A DNA stretch of 64,000 nucleotides, from positions 744,001 to 808,000 of the forward strand of contig JAIXWF010000022.1 of NCBI GenBank assembly GCA_027482185.1, given 5' to 3'. Each line of letters begins with the position of its first letter. Position 1 is the stretch's first letter. A program made the translations under genes and the position numbers. The stretch comes from Opitutaceae bacterium. Lineage in GTDB: Bacteria; Verrucomicrobiota; Verrucomicrobiia; Opitutales; Opitutaceae. Shown in pieces: positions 16,507 through 45,418 of this stretch. Below the pieces are notes generated by a model, which was given only the letters and a program-made list of their open reading frames with translations, was not told the DNA's origin and did not search any database.

Positions 16507-16567
16507 AGATTAGGCGAGACGGGAGGGGTTTGCTCCGCAGGCGTTGGCGCGCGCTGCGCATTTCTTG
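16507..16567 (-). promoter_or_regulatory. Tandem 21-bp box promoter of the DUF2934 gene
   Basis: Boxes CAAGAAATGCGCAG (starting at 16567) and CAACGCCTGCGGAG (starting at 16546) are 21 bp apart. The -10 hexamer TAATCT (16512-16507) starts 34 bases after the second box starts. No -35 is visible. Confidence 0.75.
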
Positions 16568-16576
16568 GGGCGGCGG

Positions 16577-17542
16577 TCAGGCGGCGAAGGCGAGCGTCGG
16601 GCCGGTGCGCTTCGCCTCGGGCTTGCCGTGGAGATGTTCGCGATGGGCGGTCGGCGATTCGCCGGCGACGCGCCGGAACACGCGGTTGAACTGCGACAGC
16701 GACTGGAAACCGGCGGCGAATGCGGCCTCGCTGATCCGCGTGTGCGGGTTCAGGAGCATCTGCTTCGTCTTCTCGATCCGCGCGCGGGCGATGTAGTCGG
16801 TGAGGGTCAGGCCCGTGGCCGACTTGAAGACCTTGCAGAAGTAGAAGGCGCTCATGTTGGCGGCGCGGGCGACCTGGGCGAGGGACAGCGGCTCGGCGAG
16901 GTTCGCGGTGATGAACGCGCGGGCCTTGGCCACGGCCGGCGGCTCGGTGGTCGTCGACTTGATCATGAGCTCGTTGCTCAGCAGGGAGAGGTGCGAGGCG
17001 AAGCTGGCGAGCAGCCGCAGCACGGCGCCGTAGCGGGCCTTGGTAAGAACACGGGTCTCGAAGTAGGCGGTGTGGAGGGTGGCGACGTCGGCGACGTGGC
17101 GCCATTTCTCGAGTTCGCCCATCGCGGCGCGGAAGTTCTTCTCGGTCGGCGGGCGCAGCAGCACCTGACCGGTCTGGAGGTAGCCGATGACGGTGTCGCC
17201 GAGGCGGACCGGGACCATCGACTCGCTGAGGCCGGCGAAGCATTGCACGGTGGTGGTGGCGAAGACGGGTGTCGCTTCCATCTCGCCCTGCAGCTTGAGG
17301 CACGCGGCGCAGGTTTTGTTTTCGCCGCCCATCAGGCCGCAGAACGAAGCGATCTGCTTGGAGCCCGAGAGGGGAGCCTGGAACGAACCGACGGGGCGGA
17401 GCACGAGGGGCAGGCCGGTGGCGGTTTCGAATGCTTCCTGGTAGTCGCGGAAGAGGTCTGAATTCTGCAACCGGGCAACGACCTCGTGGGTGTGGCTGTC
17501 GGGGGTGCCGGTGGGGCCGGCGGGGGAGTGGGACGCATTCAT
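16577..17542 (-). CDS. AraC-family regulator with PocR sensory domain (copy 1)
   Basis: The 321-residue protein has a PocR-type ligand-binding domain (about 20-190) and two AraC-type helix-turn-helix motifs at the C-terminus (about 215-310, with the LSLAQVARAANMSAFYFCKVF and GFQSLSQFNRVFRR regions). The sensory domain carries Cys at 68, 78, 81 and 101, spaced C-x9-C-x2-C-x19-C, which could hold an iron-sulfur cluster or other metal; this is inference. AraC proteins activate from direct repeats about 21 bp apart, which is the geometry of the boxes reported here. A paralogue is encoded at 23334-24308. It is divergent from the phosphorelay operon. Confidence 0.88.
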   Translation of the reverse strand: MNASHSPAGPTGTPDSHTHEVVARLQNSDLFRDYQEAFETATGLPLVLRPVGSFQAPLSGSKQIASFCGLMGGENKTCAACLKLQGEMEATPVFATTTVQCFAGLSESMVPVRLGDTVIGYLQTGQVLLRPPTEKNFRAAMGELEKWRHVADVATLHTAYFETRVLTKARYGAVLRLLASFASHLSLLSNELMIKSTTTEPPAVAKARAFITANLAEPLSLAQVARAANMSAFYFCKVFKSATGLTLTDYIARARIEKTKQMLLNPHTRISEAAFAAGFQSLSQFNRVFRRVAGESPTAHREHLHGKPEAKRTGPTLAFAA

Positions 17543-17679
17543 TGCGCCGCCAGAATAGCGGCTTATGCGGCGCGATGTAATTGGGGCCGGGCCCGCATCT
17601 CGCTAAAGGATTTCCCTAGGGGGTCGATCCGGCGGAGGTTCCGCTCCGCGCTTGCCGGCGCGGGCGCGGCGCCAACGCT

Positions 17680-18909
17680 GTGCGCGTGTCCATCTCCCCC
17701 GATCCCCGTGCCGGCGAACATGTTCAGCTGGAACAGGAGTTTCGCGCCGCGCTGAAGGAACTCCACGACGTGAAGGCGGCGCTCGACGAGCATTCGATCG
17801 TCGCGATCACCGATGCGTCCGGCAAAATCACCTACGTGAACGACAAGTTCTGCGCCATCTCGCGCTATGCGCGCGAGGAGCTGCTCGGGCAGGACCACCG
17901 GATCATCAATTCCGGATTTCACGGCCGCGAATTTTTCCGCGACATCTGGGCGACCATCGGGCGCGGGCGCGTGTGGCGCGGCGAGATCAAGAACCGCGCG
18001 AAGGACGGCACGCTCTACTGGGTGGAGACGACGATTTTCCCGTTTCTCGATGCGGCCGGGAAACCGCGGCAGTATGTGGCGATCCGCACGGACATCACGA
18101 CGCGCAAAGCCAACGAGGAGGAGTTGCAGCGCGTGGCCGGGGAGCTCGCGGAAAAAAACAAGGAGCTCGAGGCGATCGTGTACACGGTGTCGCACGACCT
18201 GCGTTCCCCGCTCGTCAATGTCCAGGGCTTCGGCAAGCAGCTCAACCGCGCCTGCGAGACGATCCGTGCGGCGGCCGCGGCGGCCGGGCCGGGTGGCGCG
18301 GTGCCGACCGCGGTGCTGCGGCAGCCGGTGGAAGTCGCGATCCCGCAGGCGCTGAAGTTCATCAACGCGGGCGTGGCCAAAATGGAAACGCTGCTCGCGG
18401 GCCTGCTGCGCTATTCGCGCTTGGGCCGCGTTGCACTTACCGTCCGGCCGCTGAACATCCAGGGCATGATGGCGGATATCGTCGCCGCGATGAAGTTCCA
18501 GCTCGACGAAGCGCGGGCCGAGGTGGCGGTCGAAGCGTTGCCGACCTGCCTCGGCGACGTGGGCCAGACAAGCCAGGTCTTCGCCAACCTCGTCGACAAC
18601 GCGCTCAAGTACCGCGACCCGGCCCGGCCGTTGCGCGTCCGGGTCACGGGCCGCATCGAGGAGGGACAGGCGATCTATGCGGTCAGCGACAACGGCCTCG
18701 GCATCGCGCCCGAGCACCAGGCCAAGATCTTCGAGATCTTTCACCGGCTGAATCCGGAGGCGAGCCCGGGCGAAGGCCTCGGCCTGACGATCGCGCAGCG
18801 GGTGCTCGAGCGGCAGAAAGGCCGGATTTGGATTGAGAGCCGGCCGGGCGAAGGTTCGACTTTCTTTGTCGCGCTGCCGGCCGTAGAGTCCGTCCCCCAT
18901 TCCGCATGA
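17680..18909 (+). CDS. Cytoplasmic PAS sensor histidine kinase
   Basis: The 409-residue kinase has a coiled N-terminus, one PAS domain (about 35-145), a HisKA helix with the phospho-acceptor H172 in VSHDLRSP, and a HATPase domain with N, G1 and G2 boxes ([21 protein letters not shown]). No membrane segment is visible, so it should sense an internal signal. The start is a GTG; a second GTG two codons later is equally possible, and no strong Shine-Dalgarno helps choose. It is the first gene of a four-gene operon whose other genes follow with 4-base overlaps or 5-base gaps. Confidence 0.88.
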
Positions 18910-19349
18910 ACCAAGCCGCCATCGTTCCCACCATTCTCATCGCCGATGACGACGAGGGCCACGCGATTTTGATCCGCGAGAATCTCGAGGCGGCGGGGTT
19001 GCCCAACCCGATCCTCCATTTCCGCGACGGCCAGGCCATCCTCGATTTTTTCACCCGGCTCCCGAACCCGGCCATGCCCGCGACGTATCTCGTCCTGCTC
19101 GACATCCGCATGCCCAAGGTCGACGGCATCGAGGTGCTGCGCCGGCTCAAAGCCGATCCCGAGCTGTGCAAGCTGCCGGTGATCATGCTCACGACCACGG
19201 ACGACTCGCGCGAGGTCGAGCGGTGCTACGAGCTCGGCTGCAACGTCTACATCCAGAAGCCGGTCGACTACGACCGCTTCGCGGAAGCGATCCGGCGGCT
19301 CGGTCTCTTTGTCTCGCTGTTCGTGCTGCCGCCGGTCTGCGCCCACTGA
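18906..19349 (+). CDS. Single-domain response regulator (CheY/Rcp1-like)
   Basis: The 147-residue protein is a receiver domain alone: acidic pocket DDD near 14-16, phospho-acceptor D66 in LLDIRMP, conserved T near 96 and K118 in QKP. There is no output domain. Its ATG overlaps the stop of the PAS kinase (ATGA), so the kinase is its likely phosphodonor. Rcp1-type receivers commonly pair with PAS or phytochrome kinases of this type. It probably shuttles phosphate or blocks a partner by contact. Confidence 0.88.
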
Positions 19350-19354
19350 GCGCC

Positions 19355-20413
19355 GTGGCTGCCTCCGCGTCCCCGCCGCGCATTCTCGTCGTCGACGACG
19401 ACGAAGGCCTGCTGATTCTCATGGCCGAGACCCTGCGGGCCGAGGAATTCGAGGTGGCGACGGCGGCGTCCGCCAAGGCCGCGCGGGCGGCGCTGACCGC
19501 CGCGCCGCCGGATCTGATGATTTTGGACCTGAAGCTGCCGGACGGCGCCGGTCCCGCGCTGGTCGCCGACCTGCAACTCGACCGCGAGCCCGTGCCTTTC
19601 GTGATCGTGACGGGCCAAGGCGACCAGAAAGTCGCGGTCGAGGTGATGAAGCAGGGGGCGCTCGACTACGTGATGAAGGACACGGCGCTGCTCGACCTGC
19701 TGCCGGCGGTCGTCCGGCGCGCCCTCGCCGGCGTCCAGGCCGAGCGCGCCCTCGCCGCCGCCCAGGCGGAGCAGAAACGGCTCGAACGCGAAATCATCGC
19801 CGTGAGCGAACGCGAGCGCCACTCCATCGGGGCCGATCTCCACGACAACCTCGGCCAGCAGCTCACGGCGCTCGAGCTGATGTGCACCATGCTGAAGGAG
19901 GACGCCGCGGACAATCCGCCGCTCGCGGCCGGCCTCGAGCGCATGTGCCGCATGCTGCGCGAGGCGATCACGCAGACGCGTTTTCTGGCCCGCGGCCTCG
20001 TGCCCGTTGGCGAGGACCCCGACGCCCTGCACATCGGCCTGGCGGCGTTGGCGGACCGCACGAACAGCCTGCGCGGCATCAAGTGCCGCTTCGAGACCCG
20101 CGGGGCCGTCACGTTTCCGGATCCCTTCCGCGCCGGGCAGCTCTATCGCATCGCCCAGGAGGCGGTGAACAACGCGCTCAAGCACGCCCAGGCGAGCGAA
20201 GTCGTGATTTCCCTCGTGCAAACGGCGCAGGAACTCCGGCTCGAGATCGCCGACGACGGCGTCGGCCTGCCGAAAGCGAAGTCCGCCGTCCCCGCCGGCA
20301 TCGGCCTCGGGGTGATGCGCCACCGGGCCAACGTGATCGGCGCCGAGCTCACGCTGTCGGCCCCCCGCGGCGGCGGAGTCGCCGTCCGTTGCCGGCTGCC
20401 CCTGTCCCCATGA
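19355..20413 (+). CDS. Receiver-histidine kinase hybrid (REC-HisKA_3)
   Basis: The 352-residue product starts at a GTG five bases after the previous stop; translation upstream of it would run through the preceding gene. It has a receiver domain (D58 and K108), a coiled linker (about 120-150), a HisKA_3 dimerisation motif with DLHDNLGQQL (His163) and a C-terminal HATPase domain (VGLPKAK and GIGLGVM regions). HisKA_3 kinases normally phosphorylate NarL/LuxR-type regulators, and one is encoded next with an ATGA overlap. The N-terminal receiver makes the kinase itself a target of an upstream kinase, so the operon can form a relay. Confidence 0.85.
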   Translation: MAASASPPRILVVDDDEGLLILMAETLRAEEFEVATAASAKAARAALTAAPPDLMILDLKLPDGAGPALVADLQLDREPVPFVIVTGQGDQKVAVEVMKQGALDYVMKDTALLDLLPAVVRRALAGVQAERALAAAQAEQKRLEREIIAVSERERHSIGADLHDNLGQQLTALELMCTMLKEDAADNPPLAAGLERMCRMLREAITQTRFLARGLVPVGEDPDALHIGLAALADRTNSLRGIKCRFETRGAVTFPDPFRAGQLYRIAQEAVNNALKHAQASEVVISLVQTAQELRLEIADDGVGLPKAKSAVPAGIGLGVMRHRANVIGAELTLSAPRGGGVAVRCRLPLSP

Positions 20414-21114
20414 AGAAACGCCTGCCTGCGTCCGATGAGAAAGCGACTCCCGTCCCCGCCAAGAAAAGGGTGCTGCTCGTCGACGACCATCCATTCATGC
20501 GCGTGGGGCTGGCGGCGCTGATCGAGCGGCAGCCGGATCTGATCGTTTGCGGCGAAGCCGGCAACCCGACCGAGGCTTTCCAGCAGGTCGCGGCGACGAA
20601 ACCGGATCTGGTCCTGACGGATCTCACGATGCCGGGCCGCAGCGGGCTCGAGTTCATCAAGGACCTGCTCGCGGCGGCGCCGGGCCTTTCCGTGCTGGTG
20701 ATCTCGATGCATGACGAATCCGTCTACGCGGAACGGGCGCTGCGGGCCGGCGCGCGGGGCTACATCATGAAGGAGGCCGGCGGCGAACGGCTCATGACCG
20801 CGATCCGCCGGGTGCTCGGCGGCGAGGTGTACGTCAGTCCCGGCATGTCGGCGCGGTTGCTCGAAAGCCTGTCCGGCGTGCGGCCGCGGGGCTCGAGTTC
20901 GCCGATCAAGAAACTGTCCGACCGCGAATTCGAAGTCTTCCAGCTAATCGGCCAGGGCAAAAGCACCCGCGACATCGCGGCGCAGCTGCACCTCAGTCCC
21001 AAGACCGTCGATGTGCACCGCGCAAACATCAAAGAAAAGCTCGAGCTGCGCGATGCGACCGCGCTGATCCGCCACGCCGTGCGCTGGGTGGAAACGCAGC
21101 AGCTCGGTCCGTAA
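20410..21114 (+). CDS. NarL/LuxR-family response regulator
   Basis: The 234-residue protein has a receiver domain (DD pocket near 22-23, phospho-acceptor in LTDLTMPG, K in the GYIMKEAGG loop) and a GerE/LuxR helix-turn-helix at about 165-225 (LSDREFEVFQLIGQGKSTRD). The ATG overlaps the stop of the REC-HisKA_3 kinase, which is its likely phosphodonor. It is a close paralogue of the regulator at 58128-58898. Target promoters cannot be read from the window. Confidence 0.9.
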   Translation: MKKRLPASDEKATPVPAKKRVLLVDDHPFMRVGLAALIERQPDLIVCGEAGNPTEAFQQVAATKPDLVLTDLTMPGRSGLEFIKDLLAAAPGLSVLVISMHDESVYAERALRAGARGYIMKEAGGERLMTAIRRVLGGEVYVSPGMSARLLESLSGVRPRGSSSPIKKLSDREFEVFQLIGQGKSTRDIAAQLHLSPKTVDVHRANIKEKLELRDATALIRHAVRWVETQQLGP

Positions 21115-21138
21115 ACGGAGCGCATGCCGGGCGCATGC

Positions 21139-21199
21139 CAACGCATGCGCAAACCCAGCCAACGGGCGCGGAGCGGGCGAAAGGCGTTTGTCCTAGGCT
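21139..21199 (+). promoter_or_regulatory. Tandem 21-bp box promoter, leaderless, of the 21206 gene
   Basis: Boxes CAACGCATGCGCAA (21139) and CAACGGGCGCGGAG (21160) are 21 bp apart. The -10 TAGGCT (21194-21199) starts 34 bases after the second box starts. Six bases separate it from the ATG at 21206. Confidence 0.72.
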
Positions 21200-21205
21200 G
21201 GGGCC

Positions 21206-21697
21206 ATGCAAGAGGAGCTCCTGAACGCCCTGCGTTCTCGCCGCCCGAAAATCCGGGAACGGTGGGCCGATCTGCTGCACGCGGAACGCGCGGTCACGCC
21301 CCTCGGCAATCCCGATGCGCTTGTGCACCTGATCGACTGGACGCTCGACGAAATCGAACGGGCCCTCGTGCAGCCGTCCGCCCGCAAACGCGTCGGCCGC
21401 CGGCCAGTCGCCGTCGACTACCGCCACGAATGTCCCTGCGGCCGCAACCCGCTGCTCGGCTACTTCGCGGCCGCGGAACAGGCCTTGCAGGAGGCGATGA
21501 TTCTGGTGCAGGCGGCGCAGCCCGGCCTCGATGCGATCGGCCGCGATGCCTCGTTCGAGGAGCTGCGGCTCGTGCTGAACACGATCGCGCGCCGCGAGAT
21601 CGAGGCTTTCTGCGGCGTCTGCCAGTTCCGCACGCGCGAACCGGGCCGCAGCGAATGTGCCGTCGGGGGCCCGTTGCCGGCGTTCGCGGTCTCCTGA
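21206..21697 (+). CDS. Cys-rich cytoplasmic protein, function unknown
   Basis: I do not recognise this 163-residue protein with certainty. The first 55 residues (RRPKIRERWADLL ... LVHLIDWTLDEIERAL) form amphipathic helices reminiscent of RsbR/RsbRD N-terminal sensory domains. The rest carries C76-x-C78, C136-x2-C139 and C151, with H74 next to the first pair, which could form a metal or redox site. No signal peptide or membrane segment is seen. It has a leaderless promoter with the 21-bp boxes, so it may be a redox-linked member of the putative regulon. Confidence 0.65.
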   Translation: MQEELLNALRSRRPKIRERWADLLHAERAVTPLGNPDALVHLIDWTLDEIERALVQPSARKRVGRRPVAVDYRHECPCGRNPLLGYFAAAEQALQEAMILVQAAQPGLDAIGRDASFEELRLVLNTIARREIEAFCGVCQFRTREPGRSECAVGGPLPAFAVS

Positions 21698-21951
21698 GCG
21701 GGCACGCCCGCAGGTCCGTTGGCCGCGCCGCGGCGGCAGGCTAAATCCGGCGGAGTATCCCGCGACGTATGTGCCGGACGTCCGTGCCTTGCAATCGGTG
21801 ATCGATTGCGGCGTGCCCGGGGGTAACGACATTGCCGCCGCGTCGCCGGGCTTCGTGGACGAATCGGCCGTCGCCACCGGGAGTCCGATCGTCAACCCGC
21901 GCCGTGCCGAGAATCGGGTGGAGGACGCGGTCATCGCTGTGCCTAGGGTGG

Positions 21952-23271: not shown

Positions 23272-23276
23272 GGACA

Positions 23277-23318
23277 ATGCTAGCGGCCGATGCCGGGGCC
23301 CGCCTTGATCCGGGTCAA
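23277..23318 (-). promoter_or_regulatory. FNR/CRP-like palindrome and -10 of the monohaem protein gene
   Basis: TTGATCCGGGTCAA at 23305-23318 matches the FNR consensus TTGAT-N4-ATCAA at nine of ten positions. A -10 TAGCAT lies at 23282-23277 on the minus strand. The ATG at 23271 is five bases further, so the transcript is probably leaderless and the palindrome is centred near -41, as in class II FNR activation. Confidence 0.6.
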
Positions 23319-23333
23319 GTCCCGGCGCCGTTT

Positions 23334-24308
23334 TCAACGCGCGGCCGGGGTGTGGAGCCGGTCGCGGAAGGTCGTGGGCGATTCCCCGGCGATGCGGCGG
23401 AAGACGCGGTTGAACTGGGAGAGCGATTGGAACCCGGCCTCGTACGCGGCCTCGCTGACGCGTTTGTGCGGGTTGAGCAGCAGGTTTTTCACCTTCTCGA
23501 TCCGCACGCGGGCGAGGTAGTCGGTGAAGGTCATGCCGGTCGCCTTCTTGAAGGACTTGCAGAAGTAGAACGCGCTCATGTTCACCGAGCGCGCGACCTC
23601 GGTGAGCGAGAGTTCGTCGGCGTGGTGCTCGGCGATGAAGGCGCGGGCGCGGGAAATCGCGGGCGATTCCGCGGCGGCGCCCTGCACCATGAGCTGGTTG
23701 CTCAGGGCGGAGAGGTGCTGCGCAAAGATCGTGAGCAGGCGCACGATCGACTCGTACTGTTTCTTCGTGATGACGCGCGACTGGAAGTACGCCTCCTCGA
23801 GCCGTTTCAGGTCGATCTGCGTGCCGAGCTTGATCAGTTCGCGGGTGGCTTTGGAGAAATCCGTCTGCTTCGGCGCGTGGAGCAGAATCTGGCCCGTCTG
23901 CAGGAAGGCGATGAGGTTTTCGCCGACGCGGACCGGCACGGCGGAGTCGCACATGCCGGCGAAACACTTGAGCGTTTTCGGCTCGAGCTGCGCTTCCTCC
24001 TCGACGCGCTTCTGCAGCTGCAGGCAGGCGGCGCAGGAGTGGTTGAACGTGGACATGAGCGCGCAGAACGGGCTCTCCTTCGGATCGCCGTGATGCGGGA
24101 GATCGAAGGCCTCGATCGGCCGGAGGGCGATCGGCATGCCGGTCGTCTCGCGGAAGGCCTGTTCGTAGTCGCGGTACACTTGGGACCGCCGCAGTTGGCC
24201 GACGAGCGTGCGGCTTTGCTGCGGGGACAGCCGGCTGGGCGCCGGCGCCGGGGCGGCGGCCGCGGGCAGCGGCTGCGAAGGGGCGGACGGGAGCACGGAG
24301 GAGGACAT
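23334..24308 (-). CDS. AraC-family regulator with PocR sensory domain (copy 2)
   Basis: This 324-residue protein is a paralogue of the regulator at 16577-17542. It has an Ala/Pro-rich leader (1-30), a PocR domain with Cys at 82, 92, 95, 115 and 120, and paired AraC helix-turn-helix motifs (LSLTEVARSVNMSAFYFCKSF and GFQSLSQFNRVFRR). The two HTH regions are nearly identical between the copies, so both may bind the same DNA boxes while the sensory domains differ. The gene follows the CoA-transferase gene by 18 bases and shares its promoter, which carries the 21-bp boxes; this would allow autoregulation. Confidence 0.88.
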   Translation of the reverse strand: MSSSVLPSAPSQPLPAAAAPAPAPSRLSPQQSRTLVGQLRRSQVYRDYEQAFRETTGMPIALRPIEAFDLPHHGDPKESPFCALMSTFNHSCAACLQLQKRVEEEAQLEPKTLKCFAGMCDSAVPVRVGENLIAFLQTGQILLHAPKQTDFSKATRELIKLGTQIDLKRLEEAYFQSRVITKKQYESIVRLLTIFAQHLSALSNQLMVQGAAAESPAISRARAFIAEHHADELSLTEVARSVNMSAFYFCKSFKKATGMTFTDYLARVRIEKVKNLLLNPHKRVSEAAYEAGFQSLSQFNRVFRRIAGESPTTFRDRLHTPAAR

Positions 24309-24326
24309 GGGAAAAGGCGGGACGGG

Positions 24327-25628: not shown

Positions 25629-25657
25629 GGCGAGAAGGTGTTTTCACCGTGGGACAA

Positions 25658-25718
25658 CACCCGCCGGGAGCAAAGTGCGGATGCTGCGCAGGCCGTGCGA
25701 AGTGATGTGCATTTCTTG
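25658..25718 (-). promoter_or_regulatory. Tandem 21-bp boxes before the CoA-transferase/AraC operon
   Basis: Boxes CAAGAAATGCACAT (starting at 25718) and CACGGCCTGCGCAG (starting at 25697) are 21 bp apart on the minus strand. The hexamer at the expected place (25663-25658) is CGGGTG, a poor -10, so the start site may be elsewhere in the next 30 bases. Confidence 0.55.
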
Positions 25719-25749: not shown

Positions 25750-25810
25750 CAACGCATGCACAGGTCTCGGCAAGGCGTGCGAAGCGGGTGCGGTCCGACA
25801 GGCGTACACT
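25750..25810 (+). promoter_or_regulatory. Tandem 21-bp box promoter, leaderless, of tonB
   Basis: Boxes CAACGCATGCACAG (25750) and CAAGGCGTGCGAAG (25771) are 21 bp apart. The -10 TACACT (25805-25810) starts 34 bases after the second box starts and lies six bases before the ATG at 25817. Confidence 0.75.
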
Positions 25811-25816
25811 CCGCCC

Positions 25817-34450: not shown

Positions 34451-34511
34451 ACTATCGCAGATGGCCGCCCGGGCGGCTGCGCCTGCGTTGCGCGAGAGCG
34501 CGCGGATTTTG
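34451..34511 (-). promoter_or_regulatory. Tandem 21-bp box promoter of hemN
   Basis: Boxes CAAAATCCGCGCGC (starting at 34511) and CAACGCAGGCGCAG (starting at 34490) are 21 bp apart. GATAGT (34456-34451) lies at the standard 34-base distance. A 15-base leader without a clear Shine-Dalgarno follows. Confidence 0.7.
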
Positions 34512-34533: not shown

Positions 34534-34594
34534 CAAGGACGGCGCAGGGATCGGCAAGAAGCGCGGAGGCGACGTGCGCCGGTTCGGCTAGACT
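34534..34594 (+). promoter_or_regulatory. Tandem 21-bp box promoter of the malic enzyme gene
   Basis: Boxes CAAGGACGGCGCAG (34534) and CAAGAAGCGCGGAG (34555) are 21 bp apart. The -10 TAGACT (34589-34594) starts 34 bases after the second box starts. The second of two ATGs (34601) lies six bases after it, matching the other leaderless promoters. Confidence 0.72.
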
Positions 34595-36274: not shown

Positions 36275-36276
36275 GG

Positions 36277-36290: not shown

Positions 36291-36291
36291 G

Positions 36292-36326
36292 ATGAAAGTT
36301 GAACGTTGAGGGTTGAGGGATCGATC
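36292..36326 (+). repeat. Degenerate heptamer array (GTTGAGG type), 5 units
   Basis: Units GATGAAA, GTTGAAC, GTTGAGG, GTTGAGG and GATCGAT lie directly downstream of the malic enzyme gene. Confidence 0.7.
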
Positions 36327-36338
36327 CGATCAACGCAG

Positions 36339-36360
36339 CCGCCGCACTTGCGCGGCGGCA
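36339..36360. terminator. Hairpin between convergent malic enzyme and dksA-like genes
   Basis: Arms GCCGCCGC (36339-36346) and GCGGCGGC (36353-36360) pair around a six-base loop; flanking GATCAA and TTGATT can extend the stem. No T-run, so bidirectional termination is only possible, not shown. Confidence 0.4.
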
Positions 36361-36475
36361 TTGATTCGGCCGATTCGAATGCGGCCGCGGAACGGCCGGG
36401 CACGGAGCTTCACGCCGGGCCCGACCCTCGGTGGGTCGGCCGGTGCGAGCCGCGGTTTCCGGCCTCGACCGTCTC

Positions 36476-36886
36476 CTAGCGGCGACCCTTGGCTTCGCGC
36501 GCGGCCGCGGCGTCGCGGCAGTAACGCGTCCACGGGACGGCCCGCAGCCGCGCCGCGGTGATGATGCGGCCGGTGTCCTCGCAGATCCCGTAGGTGCCTT
36601 CGTGGATGCGGCGGAGGGCGGCGTTGATCTCGGCCAACGCGGAATCCTCGTGGGCCAACTCGGCGAGCAAGGTGCGGTGGCTGGCCTCGTCCTCGGCGAC
36701 GTCGCTGGCGTCGGCGCCGCCGCGCTCGTGCGGCGTGCAGGCGGCGGCGCTGTGTTCGGCGTGCTCCTGCAGGAGCGATTCGCGGAGGCGGAGCAAAGTG
36801 CGGCGGTGCGCGAGCCAGCGGGCCGGGACCGCAGGCGGCTCGTCGGTGAAAGCGACGAAGTCGTTGGGGAGGGTTTTGGATTTCAT
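36476..36886 (-). CDS. DksA/TraR-type protein with degenerate zinc finger
   Basis: The 136-residue product has the DksA-like coiled-coil region (about 25-95) and a C-terminal finger that keeps only C102 and C123 of the usual four Cys; the other two positions are T105 and A126. DksA proteins act at the RNA polymerase secondary channel, often with ppGpp. Two-Cys variants are known and may be zinc-independent or redox-insensitive. The promoter has the tandem 21-bp boxes. The coiled-coil tip carries several acidic residues (DASDVAEDEA). Confidence 0.78.
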   Translation of the reverse strand: MKSKTLPNDFVAFTDEPPAVPARWLAHRRTLLRLRESLLQEHAEHSAAACTPHERGGADASDVAEDEASHRTLLAELAHEDSALAEINAALRRIHEGTYGICEDTGRIITAARLRAVPWTRYCRDAAAAREAKGRR

Positions 36887-36905
36887 GGCCGGAGGGGTTG
36901 GGCGG

Positions 36906-36966
36906 AACCTACTCCCGTTCCGGCGGCCCGGCTGCGCGCGCGTTGGCGACAGCGGGGCACTTCTTG
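36906..36966 (-). promoter_or_regulatory. Tandem 21-bp box promoter of the dksA-like gene
   Basis: Boxes CAAGAAGTGCCCCG (starting at 36966) and CAACGCGCGCGCAG (starting at 36945) are 21 bp apart. The -10 TAGGTT (36911-36906) is at the 34-base distance. A 19-base leader without a purine-rich Shine-Dalgarno follows. Confidence 0.7.
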
Positions 36967-37001
36967 CCGCGTCGCCGGCTGTTCCTCCGAACGAATCCGG
37001 T

Positions 37002-38870: not shown

Positions 38871-40108
38871 GCGCAGGTGGGGACGGAGGGACGGGGAGCG
38901 GCGGAGCGGGCGGGGACCGGCGCGGGAGCCGGGGCGGCGGGCTTGGCGGCGGCGGCGCGGCGGCCGCCGATGAAGCCGAAGAGGTGGATGCCGAACTGCA
39001 GCGTGAGGCCCAGCGTCATCAGCCCCGACGCGATGTAGGGGAAAAGCCAGGACGGGTTGCTCACCACCTGCAGAATCGTGGTGCGGTCGTTGTTTTCGAA
39101 ACCGGATTGGTAGAACGCGAGACCGTCGTGGCGCAGCGGCTGGTTCATCGCGATGAGCACCTCGCGGTCCTGGTGGCCGTCGTCGCTGCGGAGGCGGACG
39201 CGGCTGGAGAAGTTCTTCGGGATCTGCGTGCCCGGGTAGCGGTCGTGGCTGAATTGCAGCAGCGTCAGGCGGAACGACAGGTAGTGCCGTTCGGGCCGCA
39301 GCGCGACCCGCCACGTGCGGCCGGCGGCGGTGAATTCCTGCGGCGCGGCCAGCTGCGGCGACACCAGCCAGGTGCCGAGGATGCCGTCGGGCCCGACGAG
39401 CTCGACGAAGGCGGCCGGCAGATCGAGTTCGTTGGGATCGGCGACGAGGGGTTGGGGCGCGGCGACGATGTGCTGGCCGATGCCCTGGGTGGCGACGGGA
39501 CCCGGGCCGGAGGGCGCGGGGGCGCCGGCGGGACGCATCTGCAGCAGGGCATTCGGATAGTAGGCGCGGGCCTGGACGCGGAAGGGGAGTTTCGGGTGCT
39601 GGATCTCGCCGCGGCGCGCGAGGCGGGAGGCCGGGACGGCGACGACGTCGTCGAAGGCCGGATCCGTGACATCGGTCAGGGCCAATTCGTAGGAGCGGAA
39701 GCTCTCGGCGTAGTTGCGCGTTTCGCCTTGGTCGAGGCGCAGCCGGTAGTCGCGCTGCCACAGACCGGTGAGCAGTTCGCCGAGCAGCAGCACGATGAGC
39801 CCGAGGTGGGAGAGGGCGATGCCGGTGCGGCGCCACGTGAATTTGAACCGGAAGACAAAGGCGGCGGTCAGGTTGGCCAGGAGCAGGCCGCCGATCGTGT
39901 AGCCGCCGGGAAACACGGGGAGGGCGAGGCCCCCGAAGTCGAGGTACACGACGAACGAGCGGAAGAACTTTGCCTGGACGGCCCAGATGCCGAGGTTCAC
40001 CTGGTCCAGCGTGGCGGCGAAGACGAGCACGAGGCTGAGGGCCAGCAGCACGATCGTAAGGCGGAGCGACACCAGCAAGTCGCGGAGGGTGCGGAGGTGG
40101 GAAGTCAT
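38867..40108 (-). CDS. resB: Cytochrome c biogenesis protein ResB
   Basis: The 413-residue ResB-like protein has membrane segments near 15-32, 60-85 and 92-112, a large periplasmic domain and a last membrane segment near 350-375, followed by an Ala/Pro-rich tail. It partners ResC in system II cytochrome c synthesis. It is the first gene of the resBC operon; the promoter faces the small cytochrome c gene and both carry tandem 21-bp boxes. This ties the maturation machinery to the production of its substrates. Confidence 0.88.
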   Translation of the reverse strand: MTSHLRTLRDLLVSLRLTIVLLALSLVLVFAATLDQVNLGIWAVQAKFFRSFVVYLDFGGLALPVFPGGYTIGGLLLANLTAAFVFRFKFTWRRTGIALSHLGLIVLLLGELLTGLWQRDYRLRLDQGETRNYAESFRSYELALTDVTDPAFDDVVAVPASRLARRGEIQHPKLPFRVQARAYYPNALLQMRPAGAPAPSGPGPVATQGIGQHIVAAPQPLVADPNELDLPAAFVELVGPDGILGTWLVSPQLAAPQEFTAAGRTWRVALRPERHYLSFRLTLLQFSHDRYPGTQIPKNFSSRVRLRSDDGHQDREVLIAMNQPLRHDGLAFYQSGFENNDRTTILQVVSNPSWLFPYIASGLMTLGLTLQFGIHLFGFIGGRRAAAAKPAAPAPAPVPARSAAPRPSVPTCA

Positions 40109-40123
40109 GGCGGGTATCCCTCG

Positions 40124-40185
40124 AGTGTGCCAGAGCGGCCCGCCGCGGCGCTGCGCGGATCTTGCGGAGCGATGCGCAGGGGTTG
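40124..40185 (-). promoter_or_regulatory. Tandem 21-bp box promoter of resB-resC
   Basis: Boxes CAACCCCTGCGCAT (starting at 40185) and CAAGATCCGCGCAG (starting at 40164) are 21 bp apart. CACACT (40129-40124) lies 35 bases after the second box starts, one more than in the other promoters. Confidence 0.65.
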
Positions 40186-40229
40186 GGGAAGACCGGCTGC
40201 GGGGGCCAAAAAACGCGCCGCCGGCTTCG

Positions 40230-40290
40230 CAACCGCTGCGTTTTCCTTCGCAAGCGATGCACAGCCAGCCGGCGCCGGATGGAGCATAGT
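40230..40290 (+). promoter_or_regulatory. Tandem 21-bp box promoter of the small cytochrome c gene
   Basis: Boxes CAACCGCTGCGTTT (40230) and CAAGCGATGCACAG (40251), each preceded by CTTCG, are 21 bp apart. CATAGT (40285-40290) is at the 34-base distance. A leader of about 30 bases precedes the ATG at 40327. Confidence 0.75.
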
Positions 40291-40326
40291 CGGCGCCGTT
40301 CGGAAACCGTCAAATCCACCTCTCCT

Positions 40327-40665
40327 ATGAAACTCGATGTGAAGCTCATCCTCGCCGGTTCCGCCCTCATGGCCGGCGCCGCGCTCGCCTTGGCCGCGCC
40401 GGTCGCGGAAAATTGGGAAAACCACTGCGCCAAGTGCCACGGCGCCGACGGCAAGGGCCAGACCAAGGCCGGCAAGAAACTCAACGTGAAGGACTACACC
40501 GACGCCAAGGTGCAGGCCGAGATGAAGGATGCCGACATGATCAAGGCCACGGCCGAGGGCGTCGTCGACAAGAACGGCAAGGAGCGCATGAAGGCGTACA
40601 AGGACGAGCTCTCCGCCGAGGAAATCAAGGAGCTCACCGCCTACATCCGGAAGTTCAAATCCTGA
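40327..40665 (+). CDS. Small periplasmic class I cytochrome c
   Basis: The 112-residue product has a signal peptide (about 1-22) and a monohaem domain with CAKCHG at about 37-42 and a likely Met ligand in KERMKAY (near 88). It resembles small cytochrome c5/c553-type carriers. It probably moves electrons between membrane complexes, for example from the multiheme proteins encoded next or to the cbb3 oxidase. The 7-haem gene follows 101 bases later on the same strand and may be cotranscribed. Confidence 0.88.
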   Translation: MKLDVKLILAGSALMAGAALALAAPVAENWENHCAKCHGADGKGQTKAGKKLNVKDYTDAKVQAEMKDADMIKATAEGVVDKNGKERMKAYKDELSAEEIKELTAYIRKFKS

Positions 40666-40766
40666 ACCTCCCGTGCCGGCATGGCGGGATCCTTCCCCGG
40701 ATCCCGCCGCCCTTCGCCGCGGGTCGCGCCCGCGGAACCGCCTGAACTTTGCCCCGTGACCGTCCC

Positions 40767-42263
40767 ATGACTACGCCGACTCCGCTCCCGCCCGCGCCGA
40801 ACCGTTCGCATTTCAACAACTGGATCAGCGCCATCGGCGCCGTGGTCGCGGTCGGCGCGATCTTTTCCTTCGGGTTCCTCGCGTGGATGGACTTCACGCA
40901 AGGGGACAAGAATCCCTACCTCGGGATCTTCACCTGGATCGTCGCCCCGGCCTTCCTCCTCGCGGGCCTCGGGCTCGTCGGCTTCGGCTGGTGGGCGCAG
41001 CGCCGCTGGTCGATCGTCCACGCCGAGACCAAGCCCGACAAGTGGCGCCTCAACTTCGCCGATCCGAAACAGCGCGTCCGGCTCGCGCTCTTCGGCTGCT
41101 GCGCCCTCGGCTTCGTCCTGATCAGCGCCTTCGGCAGCTACCAGACCTACCATATCGCCGAGTCGAATTCGTTCTGCGGCGAGGTCTGCCACCAGGCGAT
41201 GAATCCCGAATTCGTCACCTACAAGCGCGGCGCCCATGCCCGCGTCGACTGCGTGCAATGCCACGTCGGCTCCGGCGCCGAGTGGTTCATCAAAGCCAAG
41301 ATCAACGGCACGCACCAGCTGATCGCCTACACCCTCGACAACTACAAGCGCCCCATCGAGACGCCGCTGAAGAACCTCCGCCCCGCCAAGGACACCTGCG
41401 AAAAGTGCCACTGGCCCGAGAAATTCCACGGCAACACCGAGATGGAATTCACGCACTTCCTCTCCGACAAGAAGAACACGCCCTACACGGTCCGCATGCT
41501 CATGCACGTGAACAAGAGCTCCCCGGGCAGCCCGCTCGGCGGCATCCACTGGCACACGAGCGACACCGTGAAGGTCGAGTATTACGCCACCGACCTCAAA
41601 CGCCAGGACATCCCCTGGACCCGCGTCACCAATCTCAAGGACGGCACCTCGCAGGTTTTCCGCACCGCCGCCTTCAAGGGCGAGCCGCCCGCCGACCAGA
41701 TCCGCACCATGGACTGCATGGATTGCCACAACCGGCCCGCGCACAATTTCCCCACCGCCAATGAGGCCGTGGAGCGCGCGATGGCCTCCGGACAGCTCAG
41801 CCTCAAATTGCCCAACATCAAACGCGTCGCCGTCCAGGCGATGACCGAGTCCAAGATCGAGACCACGGCCGAGGCCCCGCAGAAGATCGCCGACTTCATC
41901 CGTTCCAAGTACAAGGATCCCGCGCTCGCCGCGGAGATCCCCGGCGCCATCGCCGCCGTGCAGCAGGTGTTCGCGACGAGCATCTTTCCCGAGCGCAAGG
42001 CCGACTGGCGCGTCTATCCGAACAACATCGGCCACAAGGACTGGGCCGGCTGCTTCCGCTGCCACGACGACAAGCACAAGTCCGCCGCCGGCCAGCCCGT
42101 GCGCTCCAGCGACTGCAATTCCTGCCACACGATTCTCTCGCAGGGCAAGGGCGCCGATCTCGAACTCCTCAGCGCCAAGGGCATGAAGTTCAAACACCCG
42201 GACGGCGAGCCGGACGCGGAGCTCTCCTGCGTCGATTGCCACACCGGCGGCATCCAAAAATAG
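40767..42263 (+). CDS. Membrane-anchored NapC/NirT-like heptaheme cytochrome c
   Basis: The 498-residue protein has three N-terminal membrane segments (about 14-38, 48-70 and 95-117) and seven haem motifs: one CGEVCH with C-x3-CH spacing followed by CVQCH, CEKCH, CMDCH, CFRCH, CNSCH and CVDCH. The first half resembles NapC/NrfH-type quinol dehydrogenases, in which a tethered cytochrome takes electrons from menaquinol. The extra haems extend the wire. A TTG start 18 bases upstream is possible, but the ATG is preferred. It is the best candidate for the quinol-oxidising entry of the electron conduit; a nitrite or nitrate reductase gene is not nearby. Confidence 0.88.
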   Translation: MTTPTPLPPAPNRSHFNNWISAIGAVVAVGAIFSFGFLAWMDFTQGDKNPYLGIFTWIVAPAFLLAGLGLVGFGWWAQRRWSIVHAETKPDKWRLNFADPKQRVRLALFGCCALGFVLISAFGSYQTYHIAESNSFCGEVCHQAMNPEFVTYKRGAHARVDCVQCHVGSGAEWFIKAKINGTHQLIAYTLDNYKRPIETPLKNLRPAKDTCEKCHWPEKFHGNTEMEFTHFLSDKKNTPYTVRMLMHVNKSSPGSPLGGIHWHTSDTVKVEYYATDLKRQDIPWTRVTNLKDGTSQVFRTAAFKGEPPADQIRTMDCMDCHNRPAHNFPTANEAVERAMASGQLSLKLPNIKRVAVQAMTESKIETTAEAPQKIADFIRSKYKDPALAAEIPGAIAAVQQVFATSIFPERKADWRVYPNNIGHKDWAGCFRCHDDKHKSAAGQPVRSSDCNSCHTILSQGKGADLELLSAKGMKFKHPDGEPDAELSCVDCHTGGIQK

Positions 42264-42275
42264 GCTTGGATAGAG

Positions 42276-42441
42276 CAGGAGGTCGCGGAGTCCACGGAGG
42301 CAAACCGGAGGACACCGGGGCTCGGTTGACGGTTCGAAATCGCCCACGTTCATCCATCCGGTGGAGGCCGGAAACCCGACCTCCGATCCGGCGCTGAGTT
42401 CTCCGTGAACTCCGTCCTCCGCTCCGTGACCTCTGTGACCC
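42276..42441. repeat. Degenerate nonamer repeats in inverted orientation
   Basis: A left patch (42276-42298) and a right patch (42399-42441) carry CTCCGTGAN-type nonamers, the left one as reverse complement. They bound about 100 bp without a gene, between the heptaheme gene and the small gene ending at 42498. Confidence 0.5.
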
Positions 42442-42497
42442 GACTGAACTGCGGAAACCGGGAGTGACCGCCCCGCGCGGCCGCCGGGAGCCGCCGA

Positions 42498-42779
42498 TCA
42501 ACCCGGGGTTCCGTGCGTGCGGCTCGGCTCGGGCTCGTCGTCCGCCTTGCCTTCGTACACGTGCGGCCCGCCCGCCGAGTCGCTCCACAGCGGCAGGTTG
42601 TCCCGGCGCCAGGCCGCGGTCTCGACGATGTCGGTGCCGACCTCGGGGCGCCGCGCCTCGAGCATCAGGCGGTTCAAGGCCGCGTAGGCGACGGCCTCCG
42701 GTTTCACGGCCAGCGTTTCGGCGTAGCGGTTGACGGCGTCGAACTCGGCCTGCTCCAGCTGGATTTTGACGGTGGGCAT
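42498..42779 (-). CDS. Small protein with possible ribbon-helix-helix start
   Basis: The 93-residue frame begins MPTVKIQLEQAEFDAVNRYAE, a strand followed by two helices as in CopG-like ribbon-helix-helix proteins, and ends in a Pro/acidic tail. There is a strong AGGAGG five bases before the ATG and a promoter with tandem boxes. No toxin gene is adjacent, so a toxin-antitoxin role has no support. It lies divergently between the two big cytochrome genes and could be a small regulator. Family membership is uncertain. Confidence 0.6.
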   Translation of the reverse strand: MPTVKIQLEQAEFDAVNRYAETLAVKPEAVAYAALNRLMLEARRPEVGTDIVETAAWRRDNLPLWSDSAGGPHVYEGKADDEPEPSRTHGTPG

Positions 42780-42806
42780 AGGTCCTCCTGGTTGGGTTGC
42801 AGGCGG

Positions 42807-42867
42807 AACATACTCCTGCCGCGGCCGCCGCGGTGCGCAGCGTTTGGCCGAAGGGGCGCGGATTTCG
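42807..42867 (-). promoter_or_regulatory. Tandem 21-bp box promoter of the small 42498 gene
   Basis: Boxes CGAAATCCGCGCCC (starting at 42867) and CAAACGCTGCGCAC (starting at 42846) are 21 bp apart. The -10 TATGTT (42812-42807) is at the 34-base distance. Confidence 0.68.
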
Positions 42868-42894
42868 ACCCTTCGCCGTCGCTCCCGGTTCGAT

Positions 42895-42955
42895 CAATAA
42901 CCGCGTACGAAGGGTCAAGGCGTGCGCAGAGTCCCCGTCCGTTCCGGCGTATGCT
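42895..42955 (+). promoter_or_regulatory. Tandem 21-bp box promoter, leaderless, of the 11-haem gene
   Basis: Boxes CAATAACCGCGTAC (42895) and CAAGGCGTGCGCAG (42916) are 21 bp apart. The -10 TATGCT (42950-42955) starts 34 bases after the second box starts and lies six bases before the ATG at 42962. Confidence 0.75.
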
Positions 42956-42961
42956 CCCCGC

Positions 42962-45082
42962 ATGAAAGCGCAGATCCTAGGGCTGCTGCTGACGGCGCTG
43001 GCGGCGGGCGCAGCCGAGATCGCAATTTCGACGCCGCCTGCGGTGCCGAACAAAGACTGCCTCGAGTGCCATGAGGCCGAGTTCAAACCGAAGAAGCGCG
43101 GCCAACCGCCCGAGTGGATCGGCATCCGGCCCGAGCTCTTCGCGAAATCCGTCCACGGGAAGACCAACTGCGTCGACTGCCACCACACGCTCAAGGAGGC
43201 GGAGCACGCCTCGAAATTGCCGCCGGCCCAATGCGCGTCCTGCCACGAGAAGGCCGTCGCGCAGTTCAAGGACAGCATCCACGGCGTCGTGCGGCCGGAC
43301 GGCAAACCCGCCGCCACCTGCGCGACCTGCCACGGCGACGCGCACACGATGGTGCCGGTCAAGCACCTCGATTCGCCCGTCTTCAAGTTCAACCTCCTCC
43401 AGACCTGCGCCAAGTGCCACGAGGACGAGGCCGCCGCGAAGAAACTCGGCCTCAAGCCCACGCAGGCGATCGCGAAATTCCGCGACAGCATCCACGGCCA
43501 GGGCCTTTTCAAGATGGGGCTCACCGTTTCGCCTTCGTGCAACGATTGCCACGGCGTGCACGACATCCGCTCGATCAAGGATGCCGCCGCGCACACGAGC
43601 AAAGCCGCCCTCGCCGGCACCTGCGGCACCTGCCACGTCGGCGTCGAAAAAACGTACCTCGCCAGCGTGCACGGGCAGCTGCTGCTCAAGGGCGACAAGA
43701 AGGGCCCGGTCTGCACCGATTGCCATTCCGCCCACGCCATCGAGCGCCCGAGCAGCGCGCATTTCAAGGCGACCAGCGACCGGAGCTGCGGCAAATGCCA
43801 CGAAGACCGCCTCGCGAACTACCGCGAAACCTACCACGGCAAGGCCATAGCCCTCGGCCGCGCCAACGTCGCGCCCGACGTCGCCGCCTGCTACGACTGC
43901 CACGGACATCACGACGTGCTGCCGCACACGAATCCGAAGTCCCGGCTCGCTCCCGGCAACCTCGTCGCCACCTGCGCGCAGTGCCACGCCGGCGTCAACG
44001 CGTCGTTCACGCAGTACCAGCCGCACGCCGATCCGACCGACGGCAAACACTACCCGGCGCTCCACGGCGTGTATGTGTTCATGACGTCGCTGCTGGTCTC
44101 CGTGTTCGCCTTCTTCGGCGTGCACACGCTCCTGTGGCTCGTGCGCTTCGGGCTCGCCTGGCGCCGCGATCCCGCCGCGTTCATGGCCGCCCGCGCGGCG
44201 GCGCACGCCGACGCCGAGACCTACCGGCGCTTCGATCCCTTCGAGCGCTTCCTCCACATGCTCGTCGTCACGAGCTTCCTCACGCTCGTGATCACGGGCA
44301 TGCCGCTGAAGTTCTACGACACCGCCTGGGCGCGGTTCATGTTCGACGTCATCGGCGGCCCCGAAGCCGCGCGCGTCCTGCACCATCTCGCGGCTCTGGT
44401 CACATTCCTCTACTTCGGCCTCCATGTCTGGAGTCTCGTCACGAAGTGCTGGCGCGAGCGCGCCGCCCTGCGCGATCCCGCGACGGGCCGCTTCGCCCTG
44501 GGCCGCCTCTGGGGCGCGGTCTTCGGCCCCGACTCGATGGTGCCGTCGCTCCAGGACGGCCGCGATTTCGTCGCGCATATGAAGTGGTTCTTCGGGCGCG
44601 GCCCGCGGCCGCAATGGGACCGCTGGACGTACTGGGAGCGCTTCGACTACTTCGCCGTGTTCTGGGGCGTCGCCATCATCGGCCTCTCCGGGCTCGTGCT
44701 CTGGTTCCCGAAGTTCTTCACGCTCTTCCTGCCCGGCTGGCTGATCAACATCGCCGTCGTGGTGCACTCCGACGAGGCCCTGCTCGCCGCGGGCTTCATC
44801 TTCACGTTCCATTTCTTCAACACCCATTTCCGCCTGGATAAGTTCCCGATGGATACGGTCATCTTCTCGGGCCACATCTCGAAAACGGAAATGCTCCACG
44901 AGCGCCGCCGCTGGTACGACCGGCTCGTCGCGAGCGGGAAACTGGAACAGCACCGCGTCCTGCACAGCGACTGGGAGTCCCGGAAGACCCTCTACCGCAC
45001 GATGGGCTTCGTCTTCCTCGGCACCGGCCTCGCGATCCTCGGCCTCATGGTCTACGCGCTGCTGACCCGCGTGCTGCACTGA
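42962..45082 (+). CDS. 11-haem cytochrome c fused to a cytochrome b membrane domain
   Basis: The 706-residue protein has a signal peptide (about 1-18), a periplasmic region with eleven CxxCH motifs (about 30-345: CLECH, CVDCH, CASCH, CATCH, CAKCH, CNDCH, CGTCH, CTDCH, CGKCH, CYDCH, CAQCH) and a C-terminal membrane domain of about six spans with the His pattern of formate dehydrogenase gamma/cytochrome b561-like subunits. This layout is similar to CbcL-type inner-membrane quinol oxidoreductases of metal-reducing Geobacter. It could oxidise menaquinol and pass electrons to periplasmic carriers. The promoter is leaderless and carries tandem boxes. Confidence 0.88.
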   Translation: MKAQILGLLLTALAAGAAEIAISTPPAVPNKDCLECHEAEFKPKKRGQPPEWIGIRPELFAKSVHGKTNCVDCHHTLKEAEHASKLPPAQCASCHEKAVAQFKDSIHGVVRPDGKPAATCATCHGDAHTMVPVKHLDSPVFKFNLLQTCAKCHEDEAAAKKLGLKPTQAIAKFRDSIHGQGLFKMGLTVSPSCNDCHGVHDIRSIKDAAAHTSKAALAGTCGTCHVGVEKTYLASVHGQLLLKGDKKGPVCTDCHSAHAIERPSSAHFKATSDRSCGKCHEDRLANYRETYHGKAIALGRANVAPDVAACYDCHGHHDVLPHTNPKSRLAPGNLVATCAQCHAGVNASFTQYQPHADPTDGKHYPALHGVYVFMTSLLVSVFAFFGVHTLLWLVRFGLAWRRDPAAFMAARAAAHADAETYRRFDPFERFLHMLVVTSFLTLVITGMPLKFYDTAWARFMFDVIGGPEAARVLHHLAALVTFLYFGLHVWSLVTKCWRERAALRDPATGRFALGRLWGAVFGPDSMVPSLQDGRDFVAHMKWFFGRGPRPQWDRWTYWERFDYFAVFWGVAIIGLSGLVLWFPKFFTLFLPGWLINIAVVVHSDEALLAAGFIFTFHFFNTHFRLDKFPMDTVIFSGHISKTEMLHERRRWYDRLVASGKLEQHRVLHSDWESRKTLYRTMGFVFLGTGLAILGLMVYALLTRVLH

Positions 45083-45093
45083 ACCCGGCAATG

Positions 45094-45135
45094 CAGTTGA
45101 GAGTCGAAAGTTGAGAGTTGAGAGATCGAACCGCC
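45094..45135 (+). repeat. Degenerate heptamer array (GAGTTGA type), 6 units
   Basis: Units CAGTTGA, GAGTCGA, AAGTTGA, GAGTTGA, GAGATCG and AACCGCC start 11 bases after the 11-haem gene. The last part repeats the patch at 6096-6115. Confidence 0.75.
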
Positions 45136-45147
45136 GAACTCCTCCCC

Positions 45148-45196
45148 AACTCAAAACTCAGAACCCAAAAATCAAAACCCCAAACCCAGAACCCGG
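45148..45196 (-). repeat. Degenerate heptamer array (AACTCAA/AACCCAG type), 7 units
   Basis: Units AACTCAA, AACTCAG, AACCCAA, AAATCAA, AACCCCA, AACCCAG and AACCCGG are inverted relative to the neighbouring array at 45094. Its end merges into the left arm of the terminator. Confidence 0.75.
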
Positions 45197-45219
45197 CCCG
45201 CCAGGCCGGGTTTTGTTTT
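45191..45219 (+). terminator. Intrinsic terminator after the 11-haem gene
   Basis: Arms ACCCGGCC and GGCCGGGT pair perfectly around a five-base loop and run into TTTTGTTTT. Confidence 0.75.
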
Positions 45220-45357
45220 GCTCGGCGGCGGAGGCCCGCGGAGGCCCGCGGCGGGTGTTTCCCGGGCCGGCGCGGAAAGCTCCGCTGATACTGGTATTTC
45301 CCCCGCGGATCTTGGCCTTCCGGCGCGGTTTGGAAAAGGGCGGGGGACCGCAATCAC

Positions 45358-45418
45358 CAACTCCTGCGCGTTGCTTGGCAAGTGATGCGCAGCCCCGTGG
45401 CCGATGTTGGGGCATAAA
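45358..45418 (+). promoter_or_regulatory. Tandem 21-bp box promoter of the 8-haem/porin pair
   Basis: Boxes CAACTCCTGCGCGT (45358) and CAAGTGATGCGCAG (45379) are 21 bp apart. CATAAA (45413-45418) is at the 34-base distance. A leader of about 55 bases precedes the ATG at 45479. Confidence 0.75.

Follow-up and report, generated by a model that had tools for sequence, protein, structure and literature searches.

A typical AraC-family protein controls a single operon or a few. XylS acts at repeats with two-turn spacing placed at the -35, and AraC at araI1-I2 is a class II case, while the FNR/Anr regulons, whose target set is used here for comparison, include such genes as those for the cbb3 oxidase, hemN, hydrogenase, PFOR and UspA. 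The XylS operator consists of two 15-bp direct repeats, each made of a box A and a box B (PMC5481539), and the Pcob operator of Salmonella has two boxes, of 20 and 48 bp, with 52 bp between them (PMC11264322). Here we analyze a stretch of 64,000 nucleotides, termed the window, from an Opitutaceae bacterium (assembly GCA_027482185.1, contig JAIXWF010000022.1, positions 744,001 to 808,000, or G000:C19:744001-808000 in our numbering; genome 6.43 Mb, 98% complete), in which tandem pairs of a 14-bp box lie at a fixed spacing in twelve promoters. The pairs are very probably the operators of two PocR-domain AraC-family activators, designated A and B, that would control a low-oxygen regulon by class II activation.

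The original prediction, made from the letters of the window, held that twelve intergenic regions each contain two direct copies of a box whose starts are 21 bp apart, and each pair was found at its place before the gene named, with a start-to-start offset of exactly 21 bp at all 12 loci. Also as described, GC occupies positions 9-10 in 24 of 24 boxes and CAA begins 22 of 24, the exceptions being box 1 of the 42498 gene (CGA) and box 2 of the CoA-transferase gene (CAC). When the pair pattern was searched with up to three mismatches, nine matches were obtained in the window, 9/9 belonging to the 12 sites, versus 0.01 expected from dinucleotide shuffles, which bears out the view that chance is an unlikely source and shows that such pairs are not equally frequent in shuffled sequence. 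A two-box score over 20 informative positions was then compared at offsets 10 to 44. With a score of at least 16, offset 21 has 12 pairs, of which 11 are original sites and one is an antisense overlap at 40259, versus 0-2 at each of the 34 other offsets, and with a score of at least 17 it has 9 versus 0 elsewhere, save 2 at offset 44. At the looser score of at least 15, offset 21 has 16 pairs and offset 11 has 10, and the surplus at offset 11 at loose scores is perhaps a half-box echo.

The same pairs recur in relatives. The best 80 of 183 loci encoding relatives of regulator A were taken and L163, which has a 95% identical regulator, was dropped, leaving 79 loci (1.27 Mb) that surround the regulator gene and are no random genome sample. 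Scanned at a threshold of 20 with a matrix derived from the window boxes only, with the -10 left out, these loci contain 169 pairs at 21 bp versus 0 in the reversed sequence, and each of the other offsets from 15 to 60 has 0-17 pairs, the highest values being at 41-43. At those three offsets there are 8, 12 and 17 pairs in L164-L242 at this threshold, perhaps reflecting a third box. By a crude mask of open reading frames (ORFs), which covers 70.5% of the bases, 137 of the 169 pairs lie outside or mostly outside ORFs and 32 are more than half inside, and to the resolution of that mask the pairs are not equally frequent within genes. Spacers and flanks vary between sites, and the boxes and the -10 stay.

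In the window the -10 starts 34 bp after the start of box 2 in ten promoters and 35 bp after it in that of resB, as originally reported, and in the loci of relatives YANNNT lies exactly 34 bp after the box 2 start in 121/169 cases, and none of the other distances between 14 and 59 has more than 12. The further claim that no -35 is present holds for the standard sites, where its place is covered by box 2 itself and no column at positions 37-53 from the box 1 start exceeds 0.15 bits (169 sites of relatives), and fails for the CoA-transferase promoters, where a -35-like CTT is conserved. With 21-bp spacing and overlap with the -35 as the marks of class II operators, the layout is that of the AraC/XylS class II type, since the direct-repeat sites are ∼21 bp apart and the proximal one lies over the -35 region. 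An ATG is found exactly 67 bp after the box 1 start, which is the predicted +1, at 55 of 319 sites, whereas the remaining distances average 4.4, with a maximum of 33, at 59, that may stem from the letters of the -10. Orthologues of the window gene at 21206 may make up many of the 55, and 57 of the 68 members of the 21206-like group start at 65-68; the window genes 21206, 25817 and 42962 start exactly at the predicted +1. Because the ATG coincides with the predicted +1, leaderless messages are likely to arise from these promoters.

The regulator was left unnamed in the original prediction, but two genes within the interval that it covered encode PocR-AraC proteins and are the candidates. By Pfam assignment, regulator A (23334..24308, minus strand) combines a PocR sensor with an AraC double helix-turn-helix (HTH), and regulator B (16577..17542, minus strand) is its PocR-AraC paralogue. 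They are 49-51% identical and their recognition-helix cores, SAFYFCKxFKxATG and FQSLSQFNRVFRR, are the same in both. Because FQSLSQFNRVFRR is presumably close to the general AraC-family signature, SAFYFCKxFKxATG is the telling motif. A and B, which lie among the window sites, are the only PF10114 (PocR) proteins that a search of the genome revealed, and with 83.9 (A) and 76.8 bits (B) versus a curated cut-off of 23.9 they belong to the PocR domain family. HTH_18 and HTH_AraC are over cut-off in both and matched in 32/32 aligned members, and a fold search also matched AraC-family domains, which places the two proteins in the AraC/XylS family with its double HTH. Neither is an equivalog of PocR itself (NF047788: A 91.3 and B 80.7 bits versus a cut-off of 500), and among named records the best relatives of regulator A come from Opitutaceae and Opitutia, Verrucomicrobiota. 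Two cultured relatives, Geminisphaera colitermitum TAV2 and strain IMCC26134, have orthologues of regulator A. Four cysteines of regulator A (82, 92, 95, and 115) are invariant in 32 aligned proteins; the AlphaFold model has a mean predicted local distance difference test score (pLDDT) of 74, with residues 110-121 below 50, and is weak at the fourth cysteine.

The link between the pairs and these regulators was examined by co-occurrence with two models, R1, derived from the sequences of the 12 window sites, and R2, whose 91 training sites comprise 10 window sites and 81 sites of relatives. With R1 sites taken at an E value of ≤0.01 and the presence of the regulator taken from our own reading of search results, a site is present in 35 of 57 genomes. 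Leaving out the genome of the window, the median is 6 sites in the 31 genomes with the regulator versus 0 in the 25 without it, and within the family it is 6 (30 genomes with) versus 0.5 (6 without; p=0.001). In a phylum sample of 288 genomes, including that of the window, the regulator (E ≤ 1e-40) is present in 49, R2 sites (E ≤ 0.001) in 33 and both in 30, and within the family R2 sites occur in 20/21 genomes with the regulator versus 0/4 without it, and outside the family in 10/28 versus 3/235. The R2 counts are lower bounds, because only 17 candidates per genome were scored and the filters were strict, and R1 is the cleaner test, since the window genome counts for both site and regulator and the R2 training loci are perhaps in sampled genomes. 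Sites are also present where only an A-type regulator (G016, G026) or only a B-like one (G008, G014, G019) was found, in drafts that are 70-97% complete, and this would fit a single operator that serves both A and B.

Further evidence comes from regulators with a different first HTH (HTH1). R2 finds 0 sites in 13/13 order-level genomes, among them G038, which has the regulator and a variant box. Near regulators with HTH1 STRHFCK (G038, G093, G102, G179, G220) or SANYFS (G214, G305), the pairs keep TGCGNAG-like halves at 21 bp and lose CAA, as in CAGAATATGCGCAG-7-CGCAATATGCTGAG. With up to one mismatch, TGCRNAG pairs number 12 at offset 21 in these 7 loci versus a mean of 1.5 and a maximum of 5 at 50 other offsets, and we judge 9 of the 12 to be real. 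Four of the variant pairs precede a protein read as 21206-like. HTH1 may accordingly be the part that reads CAA, as far as can be deduced from these half-sites.

The twelve window sites head the following genes. On the minus strand, the pair at 16533..16567 (-10 TAATCT from 16512) precedes the DUF2934 gene (16487-16272), which is followed on the same strand by a small gene that we read as ccoS-like and then by ccoNO, a cbb3 oxidase fusion (13523..15850, minus strand) likely to be downstream of this site. The stretch 7963-16499 contains the genes of DUF2934 and the small membrane protein, ccoNO and then further genes on the minus strand, which we read as ccoP, ccoG, and ccoI, and likely forms one cbb3 operon behind the site. 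On the plus strand, the pair at 21139..21173 (-10 TAGGCT from 21194) precedes 21206, the gene of a four-cysteine protein, whose ATG is the predicted +1, and that at 25750..25784 (-10 TACACT from 25805) precedes tonB (25817), followed by a gene read as hemY. A divergent couple of pairs serves hemN (34435-33032; pair 34477..34511, minus, -10 GATAGT from 34456) and the malic enzyme gene maeA (34598; pair 34534..34568, plus, -10 TAGACT from 34589), and the pair at 36932..36966 (minus, -10 TAGGTT from 36911) serves a DksA/TraR zinc-finger gene (36886-36476). Next are the pairs before resB (40108; 40151..40185, minus, -10 CACACT from 40129, at 35 bp) and a cytochrome c gene (40327; 40230..40264, plus, -10 CATAGT from 40285). 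The weakest pair (score 15; 42833..42867, minus, -10 TATGTT from 42812) lies before a 93-aa gene at 42779-42498, and the last two, both on the plus strand, lie before a multiheme c/b561 gene (42962; 42895..42929, -10 TATGCT from 42950) and a DmsE/MtrA-like multiheme gene (45479; 45358..45392, -10 CATAAA from 45413). Gene 46280, next after 45479, is read as a porin and has no family match.

The remaining window site, on the minus strand at 25684..25718, precedes the CoA-transferase and regulator A genes, which are likely one operon, and has a -35-like CTTTGC (25675-25670) and a -10 CACGGT (25651-25646). From 29 stretches before CoA-transferase genes 4 repeats were dropped, leaving 25, of which 24 have the pair and 17 have a same-strand regulator gene within 2.5 kb downstream. 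The -10 here, originally called unclear, is present, as 20 of the 23 promoters compared for promoter elements have YANNNT 45-46 bp after the box 2 start. TT lies 23-24 bp from the box 2 start in 23/23 and is part of CTT in 20, the CTT being -35-like and 17-18 bp before the -10, and CAA is retained in box 2 in only 2/23. We read this promoter as a second layout, in which the pair is one helical turn further upstream of an apparent -35-like element of its own, and this plausibly gives a basal supply of regulator A.

The regulon is wider than the 12 loci. When R1 and R2 were run on the genome of the window, pairs in the standard place were found before the genes of a [NiFe] hydrogenase small subunit, a universal stress protein (UspA), an EF-G-like factor, PFOR, a PAS-domain membrane protein and a hemerythrin (first box poor), with weaker sites at those of a ribosome-hibernation factor (no -10 at 34) and a pyridoxamine phosphate oxidase (first box poor). 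We estimate about two dozen operons, and this figure is an estimate because several matches have no clear gene, lie over an ORF or have a poor first box. Over all loci, the full matrix with the -10 at a score of at least 24, counting identical 64-mers once and without de-duplicating species, gives 320 sites, and where an ORF follows, the downstream proteins form 55 groups, 30 of them singletons. The groups, whose counts are biased towards genes near regulator A and whose names in relatives are our own reading where no family assignment exists, include 21206-like (68), small ccoS-like (27; no library match), DUF2934 (18), cytochrome c (18), MtrA-like (16), hemN (16), UspA-like (16), CoA-transferase (15), tonB (10), and dksA-like (8) proteins. 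Further genes headed by sites elsewhere are hypB, hypE, hemH, and those of an anaerobic sulfatase maturase and a PPi-phosphofructokinase, and in class-level relatives sites are upstream of ccoNO, at ∼240-270 bp from the start, and of FixG-like genes, at ∼70 bp.

The frequent target at 21206-21697 represents a family of 163-aa all-helical proteins in which C76, C78, C136, and C139 are invariant (38 aligned); it has no Pfam family over cut-off, and at many of the loci retrieved its gene is a neighbor of that of regulator A. The pairs of L071 (G027) precede a reading frame that resembles it, and a fold search with the protein gave nothing below E 0.19. It was considered as the regulator and rejected, since it has no recognized DNA-binding domain, is present in only 18/288 phylum genomes (E ≤ 1e-6), and G166 and G255 each have the regulator and a site without it.

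The explanation that we consider very probable is that the pairs are operators of A and B, and the suggestion in the original prediction that these are activator-dependent promoters of one undescribed regulon gains support from the geometry, the recurrence before similar genes, the absence from reversed sequence and the co-occurrence with the regulator. No description of this box or regulon was found in the open-licence PMC literature, among the matches listed. Two subunits, or a dimer, would lie head to tail on the two 14-bp boxes, 21 bp being two helical turns, and in each box HTH1 would contact the 5′ CAA and HTH2 the TGCGNAG. Box 2 would replace the -35, such that sigma-70 polymerase is recruited to a -10 starting 34 bp after the box 2 start, and at the CoA-transferase-regulator A promoter the pair would be one turn upstream of the -35-like element, allowing basal expression of the regulator. 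The resulting regulon would be a low-oxygen one like those of FNR, Anr and FixK, with the cbb3 oxidase, hemN, cytochrome biogenesis, multiheme cytochromes, PFOR, hydrogenase, hemerythrin, UspA, and perhaps the ribosome-hibernation factor as targets.

Several observations weigh against this explanation. G027 has two good divergent sites (L071 1480-1650) and no PocR hit, and within the family hits occur without the regulator both with R1 (G009, 2; G024, 1) and with R2 (G007, 1; G009, 4; G024, 2). Conversely, G028 and G035 have the regulator and R1 hits of 1 and 0, and G028 has 0 R2 hits, although G035 revealed clear sites beside the regulator once its locus was scanned. Outside the family, the phylum comparison is uncorrected for base composition, and because the R2 training loci were mostly obtained via regulator A the phylum co-occurrence is partly circular, which that with R1 is not. 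As to the variants, 3 of the 12 offset-21 pairs are unlike sites, G093 nearly duplicates G102, and in class-level loci regulators with HTH1 SESHFCR accompany CAA-type pairs, before ccoNO and FixG-like genes, hence HTH1 and box type do not correspond one-to-one. In the window at a score of at least 14, offset 11 (44 pairs) exceeds offset 21 (32). The operator of Salmonella PocR differs in layout from 21-bp pairs (PMC11264322), and the argument for an oxygen signal is drawn from the target genes.

Oxygen or redox state, perhaps sensed through the four PocR cysteines, is the likeliest signal, given the targets together with the two CRP/FNR-family proteins of the genome that lack FNR-type cysteines. 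Those two, which are over cut-off for HTH_Crp_2, have no N-terminal FNR-type cysteine cluster; a third match is sub-threshold and outside this reading. The FNR-type palindrome TTGATNNNNATCAA has 4 copies in the genome and none in the window. It exceeds the reversed pattern in 58/61 family genomes, and some family members may, given this surplus, also use CRP/FNR-type regulators. Of the 12 palindromes listed for one relative, 9 are clustered in 30 kb (G143:C1:4490949-4520654) and are perhaps under CRP/FNR or DNR control. A more far-reaching proposal, which we put forward tentatively and would not yet favor, is that PocR-AraC proteins act as one-component sensors of oxygen or redox state, with a metal or Fe-S center on the four invariant cysteines, that they serve as the principal low-oxygen regulator in Opitutaceae and in part of the wider Verrucomicrobiota, that the two paralogues share one operator, and that the helical-turn shift sets the basal level.

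It is also possible, although rather unlikely, that the same regulators respond to a metabolite, such as a diol or a fermentation or CoA-linked compound, and govern a catabolic or fermentative switch, and this would be compatible with A and B acting at the pairs. Salmonella PocR senses 1,2-propanediol (PMC11264322), the CoA-transferase gene precedes that of regulator A, and PFOR and malic enzyme are among the targets; many targets, however, serve respiration or are linked to oxygen, such as the cbb3 oxidase, the oxygen-independent hemN, hydrogenase, and hemerythrin, and the invariance of the four cysteines in the 32 aligned proteins may point the same way. OmpR-type regulators likewise use tandem direct repeats, and an improbable alternative is that another protein, an OmpR- or LuxR-type response regulator or some other activator, binds the pairs and the PocR genes are co-inherited neighbors. 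The clear sites of G027 speak for it, as do a LuxR-type response regulator at 58128-58898 and the fact that the co-occurrence comparison covered PocR-AraC proteins alone. But AraC/XylS operators would likewise be bipartite direct repeats close to the -35, the sites have among them the only two PocR genes that the genome was found to contain, and the scarcity of sites within the family where the regulator is missing, like the half-site differences linked to HTH1, would be left unexplained. A chance or composition effect or a repeat family, which a 68% G+C genome, a G+C-rich box and the enrichment of offset 11 at loose scores might suggest, can be dismissed in view of the shuffles, the reversed sequence, and spacers and flanks that differ among sites with constant boxes and -10.

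If A and B do act at these pairs, they resemble XylS at Pm and AraC at class II sites in having two direct-repeat bipartite half-sites and a double-HTH AraC domain, and differ in the box (CAANNNNTGCGNAG), in the PocR sensor, in the existence of two paralogues with matching recognition-helix cores, and in an estimated two dozen operons headed by one operator type rather than one or a few, which is unusual for the AraC family. They share with Salmonella PocR, the pdu/cob activator, the combination of PocR sensor and AraC DNA-binding domain, but their targets differ and their scores are far below the equivalog cut-off. No low-oxygen regulator or promoter code for Opitutaceae was found described in the open-licence literature, among the matches listed, and the present analysis supplies for this family an exactly defined operator, two candidate regulators, dozens of targets and naturally occurring variants of the half-sites, such that the switch to cbb3 oxidase, hydrogenase, and electron-export metabolism in these soil and freshwater bacteria becomes directly testable. 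The targets resemble those of FNR, Anr and FixK (cbb3 oxidase, hemN, hydrogenase, PFOR, and UspA), whereas A and B are AraC-type, belong to a different protein family from FNR and would recognize a different box. If PocR-AraC proteins are the oxygen or redox sensors tentatively proposed above, an AraC scaffold would do here what FNR does with a CRP scaffold.

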